From an uncultured Pelagibacteraceae bacterium (GTDB lineage Bacteria > Pseudomonadota > Alphaproteobacteria > Pelagibacterales > Pelagibacteraceae), in the NCBI GenBank assembly GCA_902526085.1, contig CABZJN010000004.1:1-64000 (forward strand): a DNA stretch of 64,000 bases, given 5' to 3'. The translations under genes and the position numbers were made by a program. Shown one piece after another: positions 54,016 to 63,278 of the stretch. Below the pieces are notes generated by a model that did not search any database, was not told the origin of the DNA, and was given only the letters and a program-made list of their open reading frames with translations. How positions within the stretch are numbered: the stretch's first letter is position 1; every line of letters starts with the position of its first letter.

Positions 54016-54948
54016 ATGAGAGAACTAAAAAGAAAAATTGTTGTTTTCATTTCAGCGATTTTTTTATTGATGAGCATGGGGTCAGTATCTTTTGCTGACG
54101 GACATGGTAAAAAAATCTTATTCAGTATTAAAGGACCTGGTTCTGGAAACCCATTCTGGGCTTCTGTAACAAAAGGTGCTGAAGAAGAGGCAAAAAAATT
54201 AGGAGTAAAATTAATTTTAATTGCTCCTCCACAAGAAGGTGATGTACAGGCTCAGATAAACCAAGTTGAGGATCAACTTGCAAAAGGTGTTGATGCACTA
54301 GCACTTGCACCAGGAGATCCAAACGCTTTTGCACCAATTGTAGACGATGCTATTAAAAGTGGTGTTCCAGTTGTATTTGTTGATACAAAAGGAATTAATG
54401 AAGGTGTAACTTTCATTGGGACAAATAATATGAACGGTGCAGAATTAGCTGCAAAATTTATTTGTGATAAAACTCCAAAAGGATCTGATGTTGCAATTCT
54501 CACTGGAATTGAGTCTCAATCAACTGCATTACTAAGAAGAGATGGAGCAATTAAAGGATTTAAAAACTGTGGTTTAAACCTTGTTGCTACTCAAACAGCC
54601 GAGTGGGATACTGCAAAAGGTAGATCAGTTACTGAATCAATCATTTTGAAAAATCCTAATATCAAAGCAATTTTTGCTTCTAATGACAATATGGGATTAG
54701 GTGCAATGCAAGCACTAAAAGATGCGGATATGAATGATGTGATCGTTGTTGGTTTTGATGCTACTCCAGATGCAGCTACAAGCATCCTAAAAGGAGAAAT
54801 GACTGCAACAATAGCTCAGTTCTCATACAACATGGGCGCATATGGAGTTAAATATGCTCTTGAGCTAGCTAACGGTGGAAGTATTGATCCTAATATTGAT
54901 ACTGGTACACAATTAGTAACAACAGAAAACGCTAACGATTTTAAATAA
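54016..54948 (+). CDS. Periplasmic sugar-binding protein (RbsB/FrcB-like, Peripla_BP_4)
   Basis: 310 aa with an N-terminal signal peptide (KRKIVVFISAIFLLMSMGSVSFA). The mature protein has the type I periplasmic fold: FSIKGPGSGNPFWASVTKGAEEEAKKLG, the PQEGDVQAQINQVEDQL region, VVFVDTKG and VVGFDATPDAATSILKGEMTATIAQ. It delivers sugar to the preceding permease/ATPase. A strong SD and an immediate perfect terminator suggest high independent expression. Ligand unknown; the neighbours suggest ribose, fucose or a cyclitol. Confidence 0.92.
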   Translation: MRELKRKIVVFISAIFLLMSMGSVSFADGHGKKILFSIKGPGSGNPFWASVTKGAEEEAKKLGVKLILIAPPQEGDVQAQINQVEDQLAKGVDALALAPGDPNAFAPIVDDAIKSGVPVVFVDTKGINEGVTFIGTNNMNGAELAAKFICDKTPKGSDVAILTGIESQSTALLRRDGAIKGFKNCGLNLVATQTAEWDTAKGRSVTESIILKNPNIKAIFASNDNMGLGAMQALKDADMNDVIVVGFDATPDAATSILKGEMTATIAQFSYNMGAYGVKYALELANGGSIDPNIDTGTQLVTTENANDFK

Positions 54949-54963
54949 TCTTTAGAAAATTAA

Positions 54964-55000
54964 AAAAAAAAGGGTGAAATTTTATTTCACCCTTTTTTTT
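54964..55000 (+). terminator. Perfect intrinsic terminator after the CUT2 binding-protein gene
   Basis: A-run then GGGTGAAAT, loop TTT, then ATTTCACCC and eight T: a 17 bp perfect stem with a 3 nt loop and U tract, 15 bp after the stop codon. Because the A-run pairs with the T-run, it can also act on the opposite strand. It ends 19 bp before the fucU ATG. Confidence 0.93.
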
Positions 55001-55019
55001 TATATATTATAATTGCAAA

Positions 55020-56398: not shown

Positions 56399-57574
56399 TT
56401 ATTCTATTATTTTAAAATCAGACCTAAATCTGTCGGTAATTGTTAAACCTAGACCAGGTTTTTTATCATCTAAATCTATATATCCATTTTCAGGGGCAGG
56501 ATCACCTTCAAAAATGTAATAAAATAATTCATTGCCAATTTCTACATCATGAACTGGAAAAAATTCAGATATCGGACAATTAAAATTTGACATTGTTAAA
56601 TGATAATTATGCATTTGACCTGCATGAGGAATAACTGGCACTTGATAAGCTTCTGCCAATGCATTTATTTTATTTGCAATTGTAAATCCGCCAACTCTAT
56701 TATTATCATATTGAATATAGCTGACTGCTTTAATATCCAATAATTGTTTAAATCCAAATAAGTTGAATTCATGTTCTCCACCAGAAATTGGAATTGCATT
56801 CATATTATTTAATTCTGCATAGCCATGAATATCATCTGCTATAACAGGTTCCTCCAACCATCTAGGGTTAAATTTTACTAATTTTGGGATCATCCTTTTT
56901 GCATAATCTAAGTTCCAACCCATATAACATTCCATCATTAGGTCGGTATCATATCCAATAACCTCTCTAACTGCTTCAGCTAGCTCAATATTTTTTTTCA
57001 TACCATCAGGTCCATCTTTTGGCCCCCATCCAAATCTCATTTTAAACATTTTAAAACCTTGCTTAACATAGCTTTCAGCTTCTTTTTGCAAATCCTTAAT
57101 TGGTTGGCTGTATAGTTTAGATGCGTAGACTGGTATCTTTTCCTTTGTTCGTCCACCTAATAGTTTAAAAACAGGTTTGTTTGTAATTTTTCCCATTATA
57201 TCCCAGAGCGCAATATCAATTGCGGAAATAGCTACCATCCCCAATCCTCTTCTTCCCCACGCATGCGTTCTTCTATACATTTTTTCCCAGATATAAGAAT
57301 AATCAAAAGGATCTTCACCTATTACTAAAGGAGTTAAATAAGTATCGATTGTTTTTTTAACTAATTGAGGTGCTAGTGCCGCATTTCCAATTCCAACAAT
57401 ACCATCATCTGTTTCGATTTCACATATTAACCATTCATGAAATCTAAATGAACCCATAGCATCTGATTTTTCAAACAAAAGGTCTGAAGCATTTGTGCAA
57501 AAATTATTTTGTGGAGGAACTGTTTTACCGTTCCATTGATATACCTTGGTACGAATACTTTTTATCTTAGACAT
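56399..57574 (-). CDS. Enolase-superfamily sugar-acid dehydratase (mandelate racemase subgroup)
   Basis: 391 aa. Metal ligands are in [10 protein letters not shown] (Glu), WLEEPV (Glu) and ISGGEHEFN (Glu). The general acid/base His is in [13 protein letters not shown]. The lysine strand reads [15 protein letters not shown], so the second Lys of K-x-K is Arg. The WGPxDG stretch and the order of motifs recall L-rhamnonate dehydratase. It converts an aldonate to a 2-keto-3-deoxy acid. The PdxA-like gene lies directly upstream without a gap. Exact substrate unknown. Confidence 0.85.
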
Positions 57575-58570
57575 TTAATTATTTTTATTCTTTGCCATTG
57601 TTAATGCAATTTTGAATGAATTCAAAGTAGGTTCTAAATTTGCTTTATTTTTTCCTGCAATATCAAATGCTGTTCCATGAGCAGGAGTGGTTACAGGGAT
57701 TGGCAAACCACCTTGTACGGTTACACCTCTATCAAATCCAAATGCTTTCAATCCAGATTGAAGTGCATCATGATACATACCAACAATACAATCATGATTC
57801 CCATTTTTATAAGCTGTGATAAAAGAAGTATCACATGGCAAAGGTCCATCAGCATTAATACCTAGTTTTTTTGCCTCTTCTATTGCAGGGATAATTTCGT
57901 CTTTTTCCTCTGTTCCAAATTCAGCATGAGGATTTAGTGCTTGAACTGCTACTCTTGGATTTTTAATACCATTTAATTTCATAGCTTCATTTATAAGCCT
58001 AATTGGCTTAATAATTTTTTCCTTTTTTACATGTTCAGGTACTTCTTTTATTGGAATATGTGATGATACCCTTGCTGTCCAAAAATTATCAATAACATTA
58101 AACTCACAAAAAAAATTTTTAACCTCTAATTTTTCAGCCATTAAATGTAATTCATCAGAATATTTATTTCCTCCAAGTTTAAGGCTTGTTTTGTTAAATG
58201 GTCCAAAGTTTATTGCATGAATTTTGTTTTCTTTAGCAAGATCTAAAGCTAAATCTAAAGAAGATAGAACGCTTTCTCCCGCCTCTTTAGAGCACTCAGA
58301 TAATTTATAATTATGATTTTTACCTTTAGAGATATCTAGAAAAAATTTATTACCCTTTGCAAAATCAATATTATCGAAATCTTCTACAAAATTTAAATTA
58401 TGTGATTTACCTGAAATTTTATTTCCGCTCTCTAAAATATTTTTTTCACCTATGATAATTACATTAGACTTGTTTGTTATTTCTTCAGATAATAGTTTTG
58501 AGACTAATTCGGGTCCTATACCAGAGGGGTCCCCTAAAAGAACCGCTATGTTAATTTTATTTTGAGCCAT
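57575..58570 (-). CDS. PdxA-like (PdxA2 group) dehydrogenase
   Basis: 331 aa NAD-dependent dehydrogenase of the PdxA family. GDPSGIGPELVSKLL, the metal His in MYHDALQSGLK and AHGTAFDIAGK are kept. The GHTEF substrate motif of vitamin B6 PdxA is replaced (YSDELHLMAEKL). PdxA2 members oxidise phosphorylated threonate or erythronate, normally beside a DUF1537 kinase, which is not in the window. It starts an operon with the sugar-acid dehydratase, and the start is divergent from tctC across 72 bp. A role in sugar-acid catabolism is likelier than in B6 synthesis. Confidence 0.85.
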   Translation of the reverse strand: MAQNKINIAVLLGDPSGIGPELVSKLLSEEITNKSNVIIIGEKNILESGNKISGKSHNLNFVEDFDNIDFAKGNKFFLDISKGKNHNYKLSECSKEAGESVLSSLDLALDLAKENKIHAINFGPFNKTSLKLGGNKYSDELHLMAEKLEVKNFFCEFNVIDNFWTARVSSHIPIKEVPEHVKKEKIIKPIRLINEAMKLNGIKNPRVAVQALNPHAEFGTEEKDEIIPAIEEAKKLGINADGPLPCDTSFITAYKNGNHDCIVGMYHDALQSGLKAFGFDRGVTVQGGLPIPVTTPAHGTAFDIAGKNKANLEPTLNSFKIALTMAKNKNN

Positions 58571-58630
58571 TTTTTACTTTACGCTATGTATCAGATTATG
58601 TTTAAATATTTAAATATAAATTAACTAAAA

Positions 58631-58637
58631 AAGAGGG
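58631..58637 (+). promoter_or_regulatory. Strong ribosome binding site of tctC
   Basis: AAGAGGG, 5 nt before the ATG at 58643, near-identical to the leaders of the other two solute-binding-protein genes in the window. Confidence 0.75.
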
Positions 58638-58642
58638 AAATA

Positions 58643-59617
58643 ATGAAAAAAAGTTTTAAATTATTTTTAGCTGCCGCATTTTTGGTAACTGAATTTTTTG
58701 TTGTTGCACTTCCACTTATGATTACTTCTGCAAAAGCAGATGGTCACCCAATTCAAGCTATTACACACGCTGGTTTTGGTGGTGGAACAGACGTAACTAC
58801 TAGAATGATGTTATTAAGAACTAGAAGGTATCTAAAACAAGATATGCAATTAGTTAACAAAAAAGGTGGTGGTGGAGCAGCATCAATGGATTATATGATG
58901 ACTTTACCTGCGGATGGTCAACATACTTTAACTTGGACAACAGGTCATGCTGTATCAATGGCATTGGGTAAAACTAAAGTTAAATTAAGTGACATGCAAC
59001 CATTAGCAAGAGGAACAGATGATCCTCAGTTATTTGTCGTAAATTGTAAAAATGAAATCAAAGACGCTAAGAAGTTTATTAGCGCACAAAAATCAAAATC
59101 ATTAAAATACGGAACAACTCACGTCGGTGGTATTGATGATGTAAGCGCGATTGCTTTTACAAAAAAAGGAAAATTAACAGACCCGACAATTGTTCCATAC
59201 AAAGGAGTTGGTCCTATTAAAACAAACCTAATCAAAGGAGATATTGATGTAGGTGTTTTAAACTTAGGTGAAGCAGTTACAGAAATTGAAGATGGAACAT
59301 TATGTGTTTCAGTTGTTCTTGCAAGTAACAGAATGGAAAAATTAAGTAATGTGCCTACTGCCACAGAGCTTGGAATACCAGTTGTGTTATCAACTGTTAG
59401 AGGATTTGTAACTAGAAAAGGAGTTCCAGCTGACAGAAAGAAACAATTGGAAGATGCTATGATAAAAGCTATGGAGCATAAATATTTCCAAAGCTTTCTA
59501 ACTGACATCGGACTTGATTCAACTAGTGTTGTTGGAGCTGATGAGTGGGGTAAGCAAATGGAGGTGATGCTTGCAGAAATGACTGCTCAACTTAAAGCTT
59601 TGGGTTACATTAATTAG
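58643..59617 (+). CDS. tctC: Tripartite tricarboxylate transporter substrate-binding protein
   Basis: 324 aa periplasmic receptor of a TTT (TctABC) system. The signal peptide is about 33 residues long (LFLAAAFLVTEFFVVALPLMITSAKA). HAGFGGGTDVTTRMM, VNKKGGGGAASMDYM, LKYGTTHVGGIDDVSAI and the C-terminal half follow the TctC/Bug family. Such proteins bind carboxylates (citrate, tartrate, glutamate, sugar acids). It is followed 23 bp later by tctB, whose first codons carry a terminator hairpin. The divergent dehydratase/PdxA-like pair suggests a sugar-acid ligand. Confidence 0.92.
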   Translation: MKKSFKLFLAAAFLVTEFFVVALPLMITSAKADGHPIQAITHAGFGGGTDVTTRMMLLRTRRYLKQDMQLVNKKGGGGAASMDYMMTLPADGQHTLTWTTGHAVSMALGKTKVKLSDMQPLARGTDDPQLFVVNCKNEIKDAKKFISAQKSKSLKYGTTHVGGIDDVSAIAFTKKGKLTDPTIVPYKGVGPIKTNLIKGDIDVGVLNLGEAVTEIEDGTLCVSVVLASNRMEKLSNVPTATELGIPVVLSTVRGFVTRKGVPADRKKQLEDAMIKAMEHKYFQSFLTDIGLDSTSVVGADEWGKQMEVMLAEMTAQLKALGYIN

Positions 59618-59640
59618 TCATAAGAAAGTACATTTTTTTT

Positions 59641-60147
59641 ATGAATAATGTACACAATAAAAAAAGGGCAAACAAAAGTTTGCCCTTTTTTTTTAAAGAT
59701 GAATTTAAAGTATTTTTTGTAATAATTTTTTTTTCTACAATATTATTAATTTCAACTTTTACTTTTGATAAGGTTCCGCCAATCTTAAATAGAGGTATTC
59801 AGCCTGCAACGTTTCCAAAAGGATTATTAGTATTGATAATGTTTTTAACAACAACTATTTATTATCTATCATTCAAAAATCCCTGGAAAAAAGAAAAAAA
59901 ACTTCCAAAACCATTTTTTTTAACAATCTTAAGTTTTATTTTATTTGTTATAATCTCTAAAACATTAGATTTTTTCTTAGCTATTTCAGTTCTTTCAATA
60001 TTTGTCTCTTACAATTGGGGTGAAAAAAGAGTTTTTTATTTACTATTAGTTGGAATTTTATTTCCACTAGTAGTTTTTATATTTTTCGAAATGATACTGG
60101 GTCTTAGATTTCCTCCAGGAATAATTACAAACCTTTATTATTACTAG
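59641..60147 (+). CDS. tctB: Tripartite tricarboxylate transporter small membrane subunit TctB
   Basis: 168 aa with four TM helices (about 24-42, 60-77, 92-125 and 135-155), normal for the small TTT subunit; conservation is low in this family, and the call leans on position between tctC and tctA and on RGIQPATFPKGLL. Codons 7-18 of the annotated frame form a perfect terminator hairpin. No good alternative ATG follows before the first TM helix; an in-frame TTG within the hairpin is the only near candidate. The true start is therefore uncertain. Confidence 0.82.
   Translation: MNNVHNKKRANKSLPFFFKDEFKVFFVIIFFSTILLISTFTFDKVPPILNRGIQPATFPKGLLVLIMFLTTTIYYLSFKNPWKKEKKLPKPFFLTILSFILFVIISKTLDFFLAISVLSIFVSYNWGEKRVFYLLLVGILFPLVVFIFFEMILGLRFPPGIITNLYYY
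59659..59694 (+). terminator. Perfect intrinsic terminator overlapping the 5' end of tctB
   Basis: AAAAAAAGGGCAAAC, loop AAAA, GTTTGCCCTTTTTTT plus two more T: a 15 bp perfect stem followed by a U tract, starting 42 bp after the tctC stop and lying within the first codons of tctB. It should end most tctC transcripts and let a fraction through to tctBA. Confidence 0.88.
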
Positions 60148-60148
60148 T

Positions 60149-61621
60149 ATGGATAATCTTTTATTAATGATGGCGCCTTTATTTAGTTCCAAGTTATTAA
60201 TCGTTTTACTTTTTGGAACTTTATTTGGACTAATTTTAGGTGTTTTACCAGGATTGGGTCCTACAACTGGTGGAGCATTAATTTTACCATTTACTATGAC
60301 TTTGGACCCTCTTTCAGCAATAGTTCTTTTAACATCAATTTATTGCGCCGGAACATATGGTGGTGCAATCACTGCGGTTTTAATAAATACTCCTGGAACT
60401 CCAGCAGCAGCAGCCACTTGTCTAGATGGTTATCCTTTAGCTCAAAAAGGAGAAGCAGGAAGAGCTTTAGGTATGGCAACAGTTTCAAGTACAGTGGGTG
60501 GAATATTTAGTGTGATAGTTTTAGTATTTTTTGCACCTGTTTTAGCTAAACTCGCCTATGAATTTGGCCAACCAGAATATTTTGCATTAGCTATTTTTGG
60601 TTTAACTATGCTCGCATCAATTGGTGAGGGAAGTCCAATTAAAAATTTAATAGCTGGTGCATTTGGAATTTTAATTTCTACTATTGGAAAAGATTTTATG
60701 ACTTCAATTGATAGATTTACTTATGGAATTAATGAACTTTCAGTTGGTATTGGATTTATCCCAGTAGTAGTAGGTTTATTTGCTATAAGCGAAATGTTAA
60801 CTCAGTCAACACTTCTTGATCAAGTGTTCAAAAGAGTTGCATTAAAAGCGGTAAAACTCCCATCTCTAGATGATTATAAGAAAACATGGAAAACAATTTT
60901 AAGATCAAGCGGCATAGGTTCTTTCATTGGTGTTTTGCCAGCAGAGGGAGGAACTGTTGCATCTTTAATTGGGTACTCAGAAGCAAAAAGATTTTCTAAA
61001 GAACCAGAAGAATTTGGCAAAGGATCAATAGAAGGAATTGCTGGAGCAGAGGCTGCCAATAATGCTGCTACTGGTGGCGCAATGGTTCCAACTTTAGCCC
61101 TTGGAATCCCTGGGAGTGCTACCACAGCAGTTATATTAACTGGACTTATAATTCATGGAGTAAGACCAGGTCCAGATCTATTTAGAGAACAGCCTGATTT
61201 TTTGTATGGAATTTTTGGAGCAATGTTAATTGCAAACGTTTTATTTTTTATATTTGGTTTTTTTGGTGCAAAATTATTTGCAAGAATAACTTTAGTTCCA
61301 AACAAAATTTTATGGCCAATGATATTTGCTGTATCTGTATGTGGAACTTATTCTTTAAGTCAGTCGATAATTGATGTCTGGATAATGTTATTTTTTGGAG
61401 TACTTGGATTTTTTATGAGAAGATTTGGTTTTTCAGTTGTTCCAGTAATTATAGGATTAATTTTAGGAGAATTAGTAGAAGGAACTTTAAGACAATCTTT
61501 AGTGATTTTTGATGGAAATTGGCTTATGTTTTTAACAAGACCAATAGCTTTAACCTTTTTTATTTTATCTTTTATTGCATTGGCTTTTCCTTTATTAAGG
61601 TCAAAAAAACAAAAAAAATAA
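60149..61621 (+). CDS. tctA: Tripartite tricarboxylate transporter large membrane subunit TctA
   Basis: 490 aa, about 11-12 TM helices, the channel subunit of the TTT system. GLILGVLPGLGPTTGGALILPFT (first conserved block), YGGAITAVLINTPGTPAAAATCLDGYPLAQKGEAGRAL and the second-repeat block GVLPAEGGTVASLIGY..GAEAANNAATGGAMVPTLALGIPGSATTAV are unmistakable. It starts one base after the tctB stop. A SDR gene follows 1 bp later, so it is probably co-transcribed with the catabolic genes. Confidence 0.96.
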   Translation: MDNLLLMMAPLFSSKLLIVLLFGTLFGLILGVLPGLGPTTGGALILPFTMTLDPLSAIVLLTSIYCAGTYGGAITAVLINTPGTPAAAATCLDGYPLAQKGEAGRALGMATVSSTVGGIFSVIVLVFFAPVLAKLAYEFGQPEYFALAIFGLTMLASIGEGSPIKNLIAGAFGILISTIGKDFMTSIDRFTYGINELSVGIGFIPVVVGLFAISEMLTQSTLLDQVFKRVALKAVKLPSLDDYKKTWKTILRSSGIGSFIGVLPAEGGTVASLIGYSEAKRFSKEPEEFGKGSIEGIAGAEAANNAATGGAMVPTLALGIPGSATTAVILTGLIIHGVRPGPDLFREQPDFLYGIFGAMLIANVLFFIFGFFGAKLFARITLVPNKILWPMIFAVSVCGTYSLSQSIIDVWIMLFFGVLGFFMRRFGFSVVPVIIGLILGELVEGTLRQSLVIFDGNWLMFLTRPIALTFFILSFIALAFPLLRSKKQKK

Positions 61622-61622
61622 T

Positions 61623-62372
61623 ATGATTAATTTTGATTTAAAAGATAGAGTTGCAATAGTGACAGGAGGCGCACAAGGTTTTGGACTGGCTATTACAGAA
61701 AGATTTATTGCTTCAGGAGCAAGCGTTGTTATTTGGGATATAGATGAAGAGGCAATTAAAACTGCAATAAAAAAAATTAATTCAAATAAGGTTTCATATC
61801 AAATTGTGGATGTTGGAAATTATGAAAATATAGGAAAAAATTTAGCTGAGATTGAAAAAATACATAAAAAAATCGATATTTTTATCAATAATGCAGGTGT
61901 TGCAGGAAAAAATACTACAGTAGTTGATTATCCACTTGATGAATGGAAAAAAGTTATAGACTTAAATCTAAATGCAGTATTTTATTGTTGTAAAGCCGTA
62001 ACTCCTTACATGATAAAAAATAATTATGGAAGAATTGTTAATATTGCCTCTATCGCTGGAAAAGAAGGCAATCCTAACGCTAGTGCCTATAGCACTTCTA
62101 AAGCTGGAGTTATAGGTTTAACTAAATCGCTTGGTAAAGAATTAGCATTAAAAAATATAGCTGTTAATTGTGTAACCCCTGCTGCTGCTAAAACTAGAAT
62201 TTTTGATCAAATGACTGAGGAACATATTAATTATATGTTATCTAAAATCCCAAGAAATAAATTTGCCAAAGTAGATGAATTAGCGTCTCTTGTTACGTGG
62301 TTATCCAGTGAAGAAAATTCTTTTTCAACAGCTGCAGTATTTGACTTGAGTGGTGGAAGAGCAACTTATTAG
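61623..62372 (+). CDS. Short-chain dehydrogenase/reductase
   Basis: 249 aa classical SDR. Cofactor loop TGGAQGFG, NNAG, catalytic Ser in VNIASIAG and YxxxK in YSTSKAG are all present. The overall pattern resembles sugar and sugar-acid dehydrogenases as much as FabG (for example L-fucose, L-rhamnose or 2-keto-3-deoxy-acid dehydrogenases). It lies between tctA and the ROK kinase with gaps of 1 and 3 bp, suggesting it acts on the imported compound. Direction and substrate are inferred from context only. Confidence 0.88.
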   Translation: MINFDLKDRVAIVTGGAQGFGLAITERFIASGASVVIWDIDEEAIKTAIKKINSNKVSYQIVDVGNYENIGKNLAEIEKIHKKIDIFINNAGVAGKNTTVVDYPLDEWKKVIDLNLNAVFYCCKAVTPYMIKNNYGRIVNIASIAGKEGNPNASAYSTSKAGVIGLTKSLGKELALKNIAVNCVTPAAAKTRIFDQMTEEHINYMLSKIPRNKFAKVDELASLVTWLSSEENSFSTAAVFDLSGGRATY

Positions 62373-62375
62373 TTT

Positions 62376-63278
62376 ATGCAAATAGGAATTGATGTTGGAG
62401 CTACAAAAATAGAAAGTGTAATTTTAGATGAAAAAGGTAATGAAAGTAATCGTGAAAGAACAGATTGTCCAAAAGATTATTTCCAAATTGTTAAAACAAT
62501 TAAAGATATTAACAAAAAATTAGAGAAAGAATTAAATAAAGTATTACCAATCGGTGTATGTCATCCTGGCATACATTCACCTCAAACTGGATTAGTTAAA
62601 AATGCACCAAACTGTTATTGGTTGGAAAAAAAACCATTTCAAAATGATTTAAGAAAAGAATTGGGTAAAGAGGTATTTTGCGAAAATGATGCAAATTGTT
62701 TTGCTTTATCAGAAGCATTAGATGGAGCAGGAAAACATTATAAAATTGTTTATGGAATAATAATTGGTTCAGGTGTTGGTGGTGGTTTGGTAATAGATAA
62801 AAAAATAGTTAGCGGACCTAATGGAGTAGCAGGAGAGTGGGGACATAATCAAATTACTCATTTAATTGCAAAAAAAGAAAACTTCGAGTCTACCAATTTA
62901 AGAGAGGGCGAGATTGAGAGTTTTATGTCAGGTTTAAGTTTAGCAAAAAAATTCAATAAAAAATTCAAAAAGAATTTAAAGACAAATGAAATTTTTGATT
63001 CATATAGAAAGCATGATTTAGATGCTGAAGATTTAATAGATAATTTTAAAGTAAATTTAGCAATGTCCTTAGCGAATATAATTAATATTCTTGATCCTGA
63101 TTGTTTTGTTTTTGGCGGGGGTGTATCAAATGAAATTGATTTTTTAAGTGAAATCGAAAGCATTGTAAGAAAATTTGTAACTGGCAGAGAGTATGAAGGT
63201 GTGTTTCTTAAGCCAAAGTACGGAGATGCTAGTGGTGTTAGAGGTGCTGCAAGATTAGGAAGAAAATCAATTTATTAA
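62376..63278 (+). CDS. ROK-family sugar kinase lacking the cysteine zinc motif
   Basis: 300 aa. The ATP-binding start GIDVGATKIESVIL, catalytic Asp in CENDANCFALSEA, GSGVGGGLVIDKKIVSGPNGVAGEWGHN and the C-terminal VFGGGVSNE place it in the ROK family (glucokinase, fructokinase, NagK). After GEWGHN the usual C-x-C-G-x-x-G-C-x-E zinc loop is absent: the sequence goes through LREGEIESFMSGLSL with no cysteines. The His of GEWGH remains. A GtsA-like glucose-type transporter begins next, so a hexose is plausible. Confidence 0.87.
   Translation: MQIGIDVGATKIESVILDEKGNESNRERTDCPKDYFQIVKTIKDINKKLEKELNKVLPIGVCHPGIHSPQTGLVKNAPNCYWLEKKPFQNDLRKELGKEVFCENDANCFALSEALDGAGKHYKIVYGIIIGSGVGGGLVIDKKIVSGPNGVAGEWGHNQITHLIAKKENFESTNLREGEIESFMSGLSLAKKFNKKFKKNLKTNEIFDSYRKHDLDAEDLIDNFKVNLAMSLANIINILDPDCFVFGGGVSNEIDFLSEIESIVRKFVTGREYEGVFLKPKYGDASGVRGAARLGRKSIY

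Follow-up and report, generated by a model that had tools for sequence, protein, structure and literature searches.

Results

Two hairpins lie at the tctC-tctB junction

The window, i.e., the whole stretch of 64,000 nucleotides analysed here, belongs to a SAR11 (Pelagibacteraceae) genome, as judged by near-identical named relatives. On its plus strand are the three genes of a tripartite tricarboxylate transporter (TTT): tctC (58643..59617) for the substrate-binding protein (SBP; Pfam PF03401, E=1.2e-17), tctB (59641..60147) for the small membrane subunit (Pfam PF07331, matched at residues 27-158 only), and tctA (60149..61621) for the large membrane subunit (Pfam PF01970, E=1.1e-158). The TAG stop codon of tctC ends at 59617, and the ATG of tctB occupies 59641-59643. 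Within 56399-63278, the tct operon sits beside genes for mandelate-racemase-like, PdxA-like, SDR, and ROK proteins and for a sugar-type binding protein, a neighbourhood that suggests uptake and catabolism of sugar acids.

Inside tctB lies a terminator-like hairpin, HP2 (59659..59694, plus strand), in which a perfect stem of 15 bp (A59659-C59673 with G59678-T59692; 14 bp in the minimum-energy fold) closes an AAAA loop (59674-59677) and is associated with a run of nine T residues (59686-59694), the U9 tract of the RNA. HP2 is located 42 nt after tctC and 18 nt from the A of the tctB ATG, codon 7 of tctB beginning at 59659 and codon 18 ending at 59694; its position, stem, and U tract agree with the preliminary description of this DNA. 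The RNA of 59620-59710 folds at -27.3 kcal/mol, as compared with -9.6 +/- 2.6 kcal/mol for its shuffled versions (z = -6.7; 0/200 shuffles as stable), and HP2 by itself at -18.2 kcal/mol. Its structure is hence that of an intrinsic (Rho-independent) terminator, namely a stable G+C-containing stem-loop with a U run immediately after it, and it is placed directly 3' of the 5' SBP gene within a co-directional transporter operon (tctC-HP2-tctB-tctA). A consensus terminator scan of the window did not pick up HP2; the probable reason is that the A-U base of the stem takes up the U tract. Also, an Rfam search gave no match above the gathering threshold, the best score, 29.1 bits where the cut-off is 50, being near chance. 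The arms of HP2, GGGCAAAC-loop-GTTTGCCC, occur at a single site in the genome of the window and in only 3 of the 21 sampled genomes, always at the tct junction; a dispersed repeat element, with one place per genome and at tct only, is therefore ruled out.

A second conserved hairpin, overlooked in the preliminary description, surrounds the tctB start codon. This hairpin, HP1 (59628..59653, plus strand), is a 7-bp pairing of GTACATT with AATGTAC (59628-59634 with 59647-59653) in the RNAalifold consensus, and the ATG of tctB is enclosed in its loop. Its stability is low (-5.8 kcal/mol alone); the 5' arm is non-coding, and the 3' arm corresponds to codons 3-5 of tctB. In the alignment of 44 rows, the arms are invariant except at one position (U-G in two rows), with variable flanks and loop length. 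Compensatory changes in the HP1 arms number zero in this alignment, and we infer the pairing because the non-coding arm is invariant while the length of the loop varies. HP1 was located at tct junctions only. As a dispersed operator it was rejected for the genome of the window, where it has one site, and the variable loop length argues against a DNA operator of fixed spacing.

The RNA structure is conserved among SAR11 orthologues

We compared 83 distinct orthologous tctC-tctB junctions, which were drawn from 80 named loci and from 61 genomes that gave a match and in which the identity of TctB goes down to 67%. Many of the loci are from single-cell assemblies; furthermore, the sequences belong to one genus and are not independent events, so that the counts given below are inflated by kinship. 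When no structure was supplied, RNAalifold returned exactly two hairpins, HP1 and HP2. In the 44-row alignment, 99.8% of the cells are paired in HP2 and 99.9% in HP1 and HP2 together, and sliding the pairing register leaves far fewer paired cells. Three pairs of HP2 show compensatory changes, a number that is reached by 1 of 500 shuffles: a G-C to A-U and an A-U to G-C replacement in two loci (L127/L135) and an A-U to G-C replacement in another (L136). The proposed check on the hairpin in other SAR11 tct operons has thus come out in its favour.

The silent sites tell the same story. Synonymous difference is 0.016 at codons 8-18 as compared with 0.39 in the rest of tctB, and the lowest value among 137 windows of 11 codons in the tctB core is 0.21. 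The U8-9 tract is conserved among the orthologues, and its Phe codons are TTT in 136 cases and TTC in none, as compared with 101 TTC of 833 in the core. In L127/L135, moreover, residues are altered (KRAN to KGTN and LPFF to LSLF) but the stem is kept. These residue changes with the stem retained, together with the frozen silent sites, indicate that selection acts on the RNA structure and not on the peptide alone. Conservation confined to the importance of the N-terminal peptide of TctB is accordingly hard to credit, even though RANKSLPFFF is nearly constant: the residue changes that do occur (KGTNKSLSLFF in L127/L135) are paired in such a way that the stem persists.

In one locus (L137; G112:C10), tctB is frameshifted or broken further on, and both junction hairpins are intact. 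An ORF in another frame, which starts at an ATG located 7 nt further on and runs for 24 codons in the window, was considered as a decoy; its length is 15-30 codons among the relatives, and signs of selection are absent.

tctB is predicted to start upstream of HP2

The preliminary description left two alternatives, a hairpin translated as part of tctB or a tctB that begins downstream of it at a non-ATG codon. The ATG upstream of HP2 is invariant in the 83 junctions (83/83, in related sequences), and its distance to the tctB core is 54 nt in nearly all of them; the two exceptions (L125, L126) have 57 nt, with one extra codon in the hairpin loop. The spacer between tctC and the ATG, on the other hand, varies freely from 18 to 28 nt, with indels that disregard the frame. 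That the only two indels between ATG and core are of 3 nt, while those before the ATG do not keep to multiples of three, disfavours the downstream start and favours translation of the hairpin. It is the frame and the start-codon conservation, rather than protein data, that place the terminator within the translated frame.

A tctB that starts behind the hairpin with its own promoter, the upstream ATG being incidental, would fit with the Pfam match from residue 27 and with the TctB paralogs, whose first residue corresponds to residue ~18. Between the hairpin and the core, nonetheless, there is no in-frame ATG, GTG, or TTG, and the sole candidate is a TTG in the stem; with the invariant ATG and the 3-nt indels also against it, we regard this arrangement as very improbable.

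Residues 1-18 of TctB (MNNVHNKKRANKSLPFFF) are coded by the 3' half of HP1 and by the terminator, and the segment MNNVHNKKRANKSLPFFFK is the predicted product of the translated terminator. In SAR11 tct operons that are paralogous to this one (31-33% TctB identity), tctC and the ATG are separated by a G-C hairpin that lacks a U tract, and TctB starts with MIKDIK..., which aligns with residue ~18 of TctB in the window. Given that the paralogs start where the 18-residue extension ends, the extension is, as judged from this alignment, essentially the translated hairpin; it is as if the start codon of tctB had moved upstream past the hairpin. In a distant tct paralog (L145, L146), the ATG of tctB overlaps the tctC stop codon (TAATG), and a GCGCCC/GGGCGC hairpin without a U tract is found in the N-terminal codons of tctB. 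Alphaproteobacterial tctC-tctB junctions have many strong hairpins, which are uninformative because most of these genomes have 49-69% G+C and there is no matched control.

A second tct operon has its start codon within a terminator-like stem

The same genome has another tct operon (tct-2), on contig C5 (L200/L213), and its junction (L200:1870-1960, minus strand) also overlaps tctB. There, the GTG start codon of tctB is paired within a conserved terminator-like stem: AGAGCA(GTG)A pairs with TCACTGCTCT (codons S-L-L), a short run of T comes next, and the first membrane helix is encoded from the 3' arm onwards. None of the ten pairs is lost in 29 aligned relatives, and one of them has compensatory changes in five rows; GTG serves as the start codon in 29/29, and CTG codes for the first paired leucine in 29/29, in spite of the low G+C content of the genome. 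No other window of five codons in this tctB shows so little synonymous change. A shuffle control on the number of pairs varying on both sides was not significant for tct-2, in which only one pair varies in this way.

Hairpins follow most of the binding-protein genes located in the genome

We then asked how often a single hairpin of -15 kcal/mol or better occurs in the first 100 nt past a stop codon, applying one function to SBP genes and to other co-directional junctions alike. Such a hairpin follows 22/25 SBP genes of TRAP, ABC, and TTT transporters (L151-L171, L177, L200, and the window), as opposed to 1/113 other junctions (Fisher p 3e-21). The SBP genes were located by the Pfam families DctP, SBP_bac_1, SBP_bac_3, Peripla_BP_6, and OpuAC, to which RbsB-like and PstS-like genes from the sampled DNA and the two tctC genes were added, the 25 being an incomplete census; the background comprises sampled stretches that add up to 214 kb, the window included, with mechanical gene calls (ATG starts, at least 70 codons). 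In two other SAR11 genomes, all of the seven DctP genes (7/7) have such a hairpin. By our own reading, a U tract is present in 15 of the 22 SBP hairpins, and 7 have no clear one. The next coding sequence is overlapped at the two tct junctions only and at none of about 20 other SBP junctions.

The window itself holds a comparable terminator-like hairpin (54963..55001, plus strand; 18 pairs, -20.1 kcal/mol, z -6.2) after a binding-protein gene at 54016-54948, which we judged by its sequence to be RbsB-like. Past the stop codons of two other SBP genes (L156, L160), the next ATG abuts the U tract, and the hairpin sits where a ribosome-binding site would be. The sole strong hairpin at a non-SBP junction in the 214 kb (L174:18115-18156, minus strand) lies after a gene for a 452-aa protein and before a gene for a small membrane protein; the 452-aa protein resembles the DMSP demethylase DmdA.

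Discussion

We consider it probable that HP2 acts as a leaky internal terminator, which would keep the binding protein well above the permease and with which the beginning of the permease gene overlaps. The ATG of tctB is upstream of HP2, so transcription must have passed through HP2 for every mRNA that yields TctB; if HP2 is a terminator, it must therefore be leaky. Most RNA polymerases coming from tctC would stop at the U tract, leaving a stable mRNA of tctC alone with the hairpin at its 3' end, and a minority would read through into tctB-tctA and probably into the following genes too. Such partial read-through would result in a large excess of the binding protein over the membrane subunits. 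On the read-through mRNA, the terminator would be translated as an 18-residue N-terminal tail ahead of the first membrane helix, and HP1 may limit the initiation of tctB. The proposal of a built-in expression splitter in the preliminary description is well supported by comparison, i.e., by the conservation, the compensatory changes, and the hairpins after 22/25 SBP genes, and ribosomes entering tctB may influence termination, as was also suggested there; the interpretation in that description as a whole is partly supported.

The same hairpin might instead serve mainly as a barrier to decay, with a full-length mRNA that loses tctBA to degradation starting at the 3' side while tctC is protected, as in malE-malF. 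The seven SBP hairpins without a U tract would fit a shared function in mRNA protection, as would the G-C hairpins without U tracts at paralogous tct junctions (L138-L144), and the precedent in E. coli puts such structures inside the downstream coding sequence (PMC5927463). A pure barrier, however, has no need of the U8-9 tract and of the avoidance of TTC that are conserved in HP2, and we hold this explanation to be quite unlikely.

A regulated attenuator, in which ribosomes (re-)initiating at tctB melt or pre-empt the hairpin so that polymerase reads through and tctBA responds to translation, would refine the leaky terminator rather than exclude it. The geometry invites such a reading: in the operon of the window, HP1 cages the ATG and a ribosome initiating there would have the start of the terminator immediately before it, the GTG of tct-2 is itself a paired part of the stem so that initiation and hairpin are mutually exclusive, and overlap with the next gene is peculiar to these two junctions. 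A constitutive overlap accounts for the same data, nonetheless, and neither an Rfam match above the gathering score nor a signal, ligand, or alternative pairing was identified; regulation of this kind is therefore rather unlikely in our estimation. We would also put forward, tentatively and as an idea that is improbable as it stands, that the permease start site and the terminator in SAR11 TTT operons are fused into one translation-gated attenuator instead of a fixed splitter, in which the terminated mRNAs are nonstop messages silenced by HP1. With a fixed splitter and a gated attenuator alike, the terminated mRNAs would have a start codon without a stop codon, and HP1 may silence them.

SAR11 bacteria have very abundant binding proteins, few regulators, and few intergenic bases. 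A leaky terminator or similar hairpin after nearly every SBP gene would provide a simple, genome-wide control of the ratio of binding protein to pump that requires no regulator. In the tct cases, the putative terminator doubles as protein-coding sequence and is preserved both by compensatory changes and at the level of silent sites; this also cautions against annotating start codons and terminators separately in such genomes. No report of SAR11 terminators after binding-protein genes was found in the literature searched, most subscription journals being outside its scope. What appears to be new is the translation of a terminator with a U tract, together with the recurrence of this arrangement in two TTT operons and its general occurrence in SAR11, whereas the general device of an internal terminator or decay barrier after an SBP gene is already known from ABC importers of Clostridia and from E. 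coli.

A terminator hairpin in a translated frame has a parallel in the attenuation of the E. coli pyrBI type, where UTP serves as the signal and the hairpin lies within the frame for a short leader peptide. In both cases, a close ribosome could prevent the hairpin from forming; the frame of HP2 is, however, that of a structural gene and not of a leader peptide.

Internal terminators follow SBP genes in ABC importers of Ruminiclostridium cellulolyticum and other cellulolytic Clostridia (Wu et al. 2022, PMC9045158); these are stem-loops, often with a U-rich tract, that terminate with an efficiency of 20.7-96.1% and make the SBP mRNA more abundant than the translocator mRNA (PMC9045158). HP2 shares with them its place directly after the 5' SBP gene of a transporter operon (PMC9045158), but the terminators in Clostridia are intergenic and belong to ABC operons, whereas HP2 is in the frame of the next gene of a SAR11 TTT operon and is accompanied by a second hairpin at the start codon. 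In E. coli, protective structures within coding sequences were described in differentially decaying operons including malE-malF (Dar and Sorek 2018, PMC5927463). Like HP2, they are conserved structures at the beginning of the downstream gene, and they set stoichiometry there, often that of SBP subunits (PMC5927463); they lie on average 107 nt into the coding sequence and act through RNases, and gene pairs split by stem-loop and U-tract motifs were left out of that set (PMC5927463), while HP2, with its conserved U9 tract, begins at 18 nt inside the coding sequence. In afuABC of Methanococcus maripaludis, termination inside the operon gives a measured ratio of over 9-fold and is physiologically needed (PMC10450193). 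Termination between the first gene and the remainder of a transporter operon is the feature in common, which for HP2 is predicted from the sequence; the afuABC case is archaeal and intergenic (PMC10450193). Taking the partial termination in Clostridia together with the precedents within coding sequences in E. coli, a fixed splitter that would keep TctC well above TctBA is the simplest account of the tct junction.
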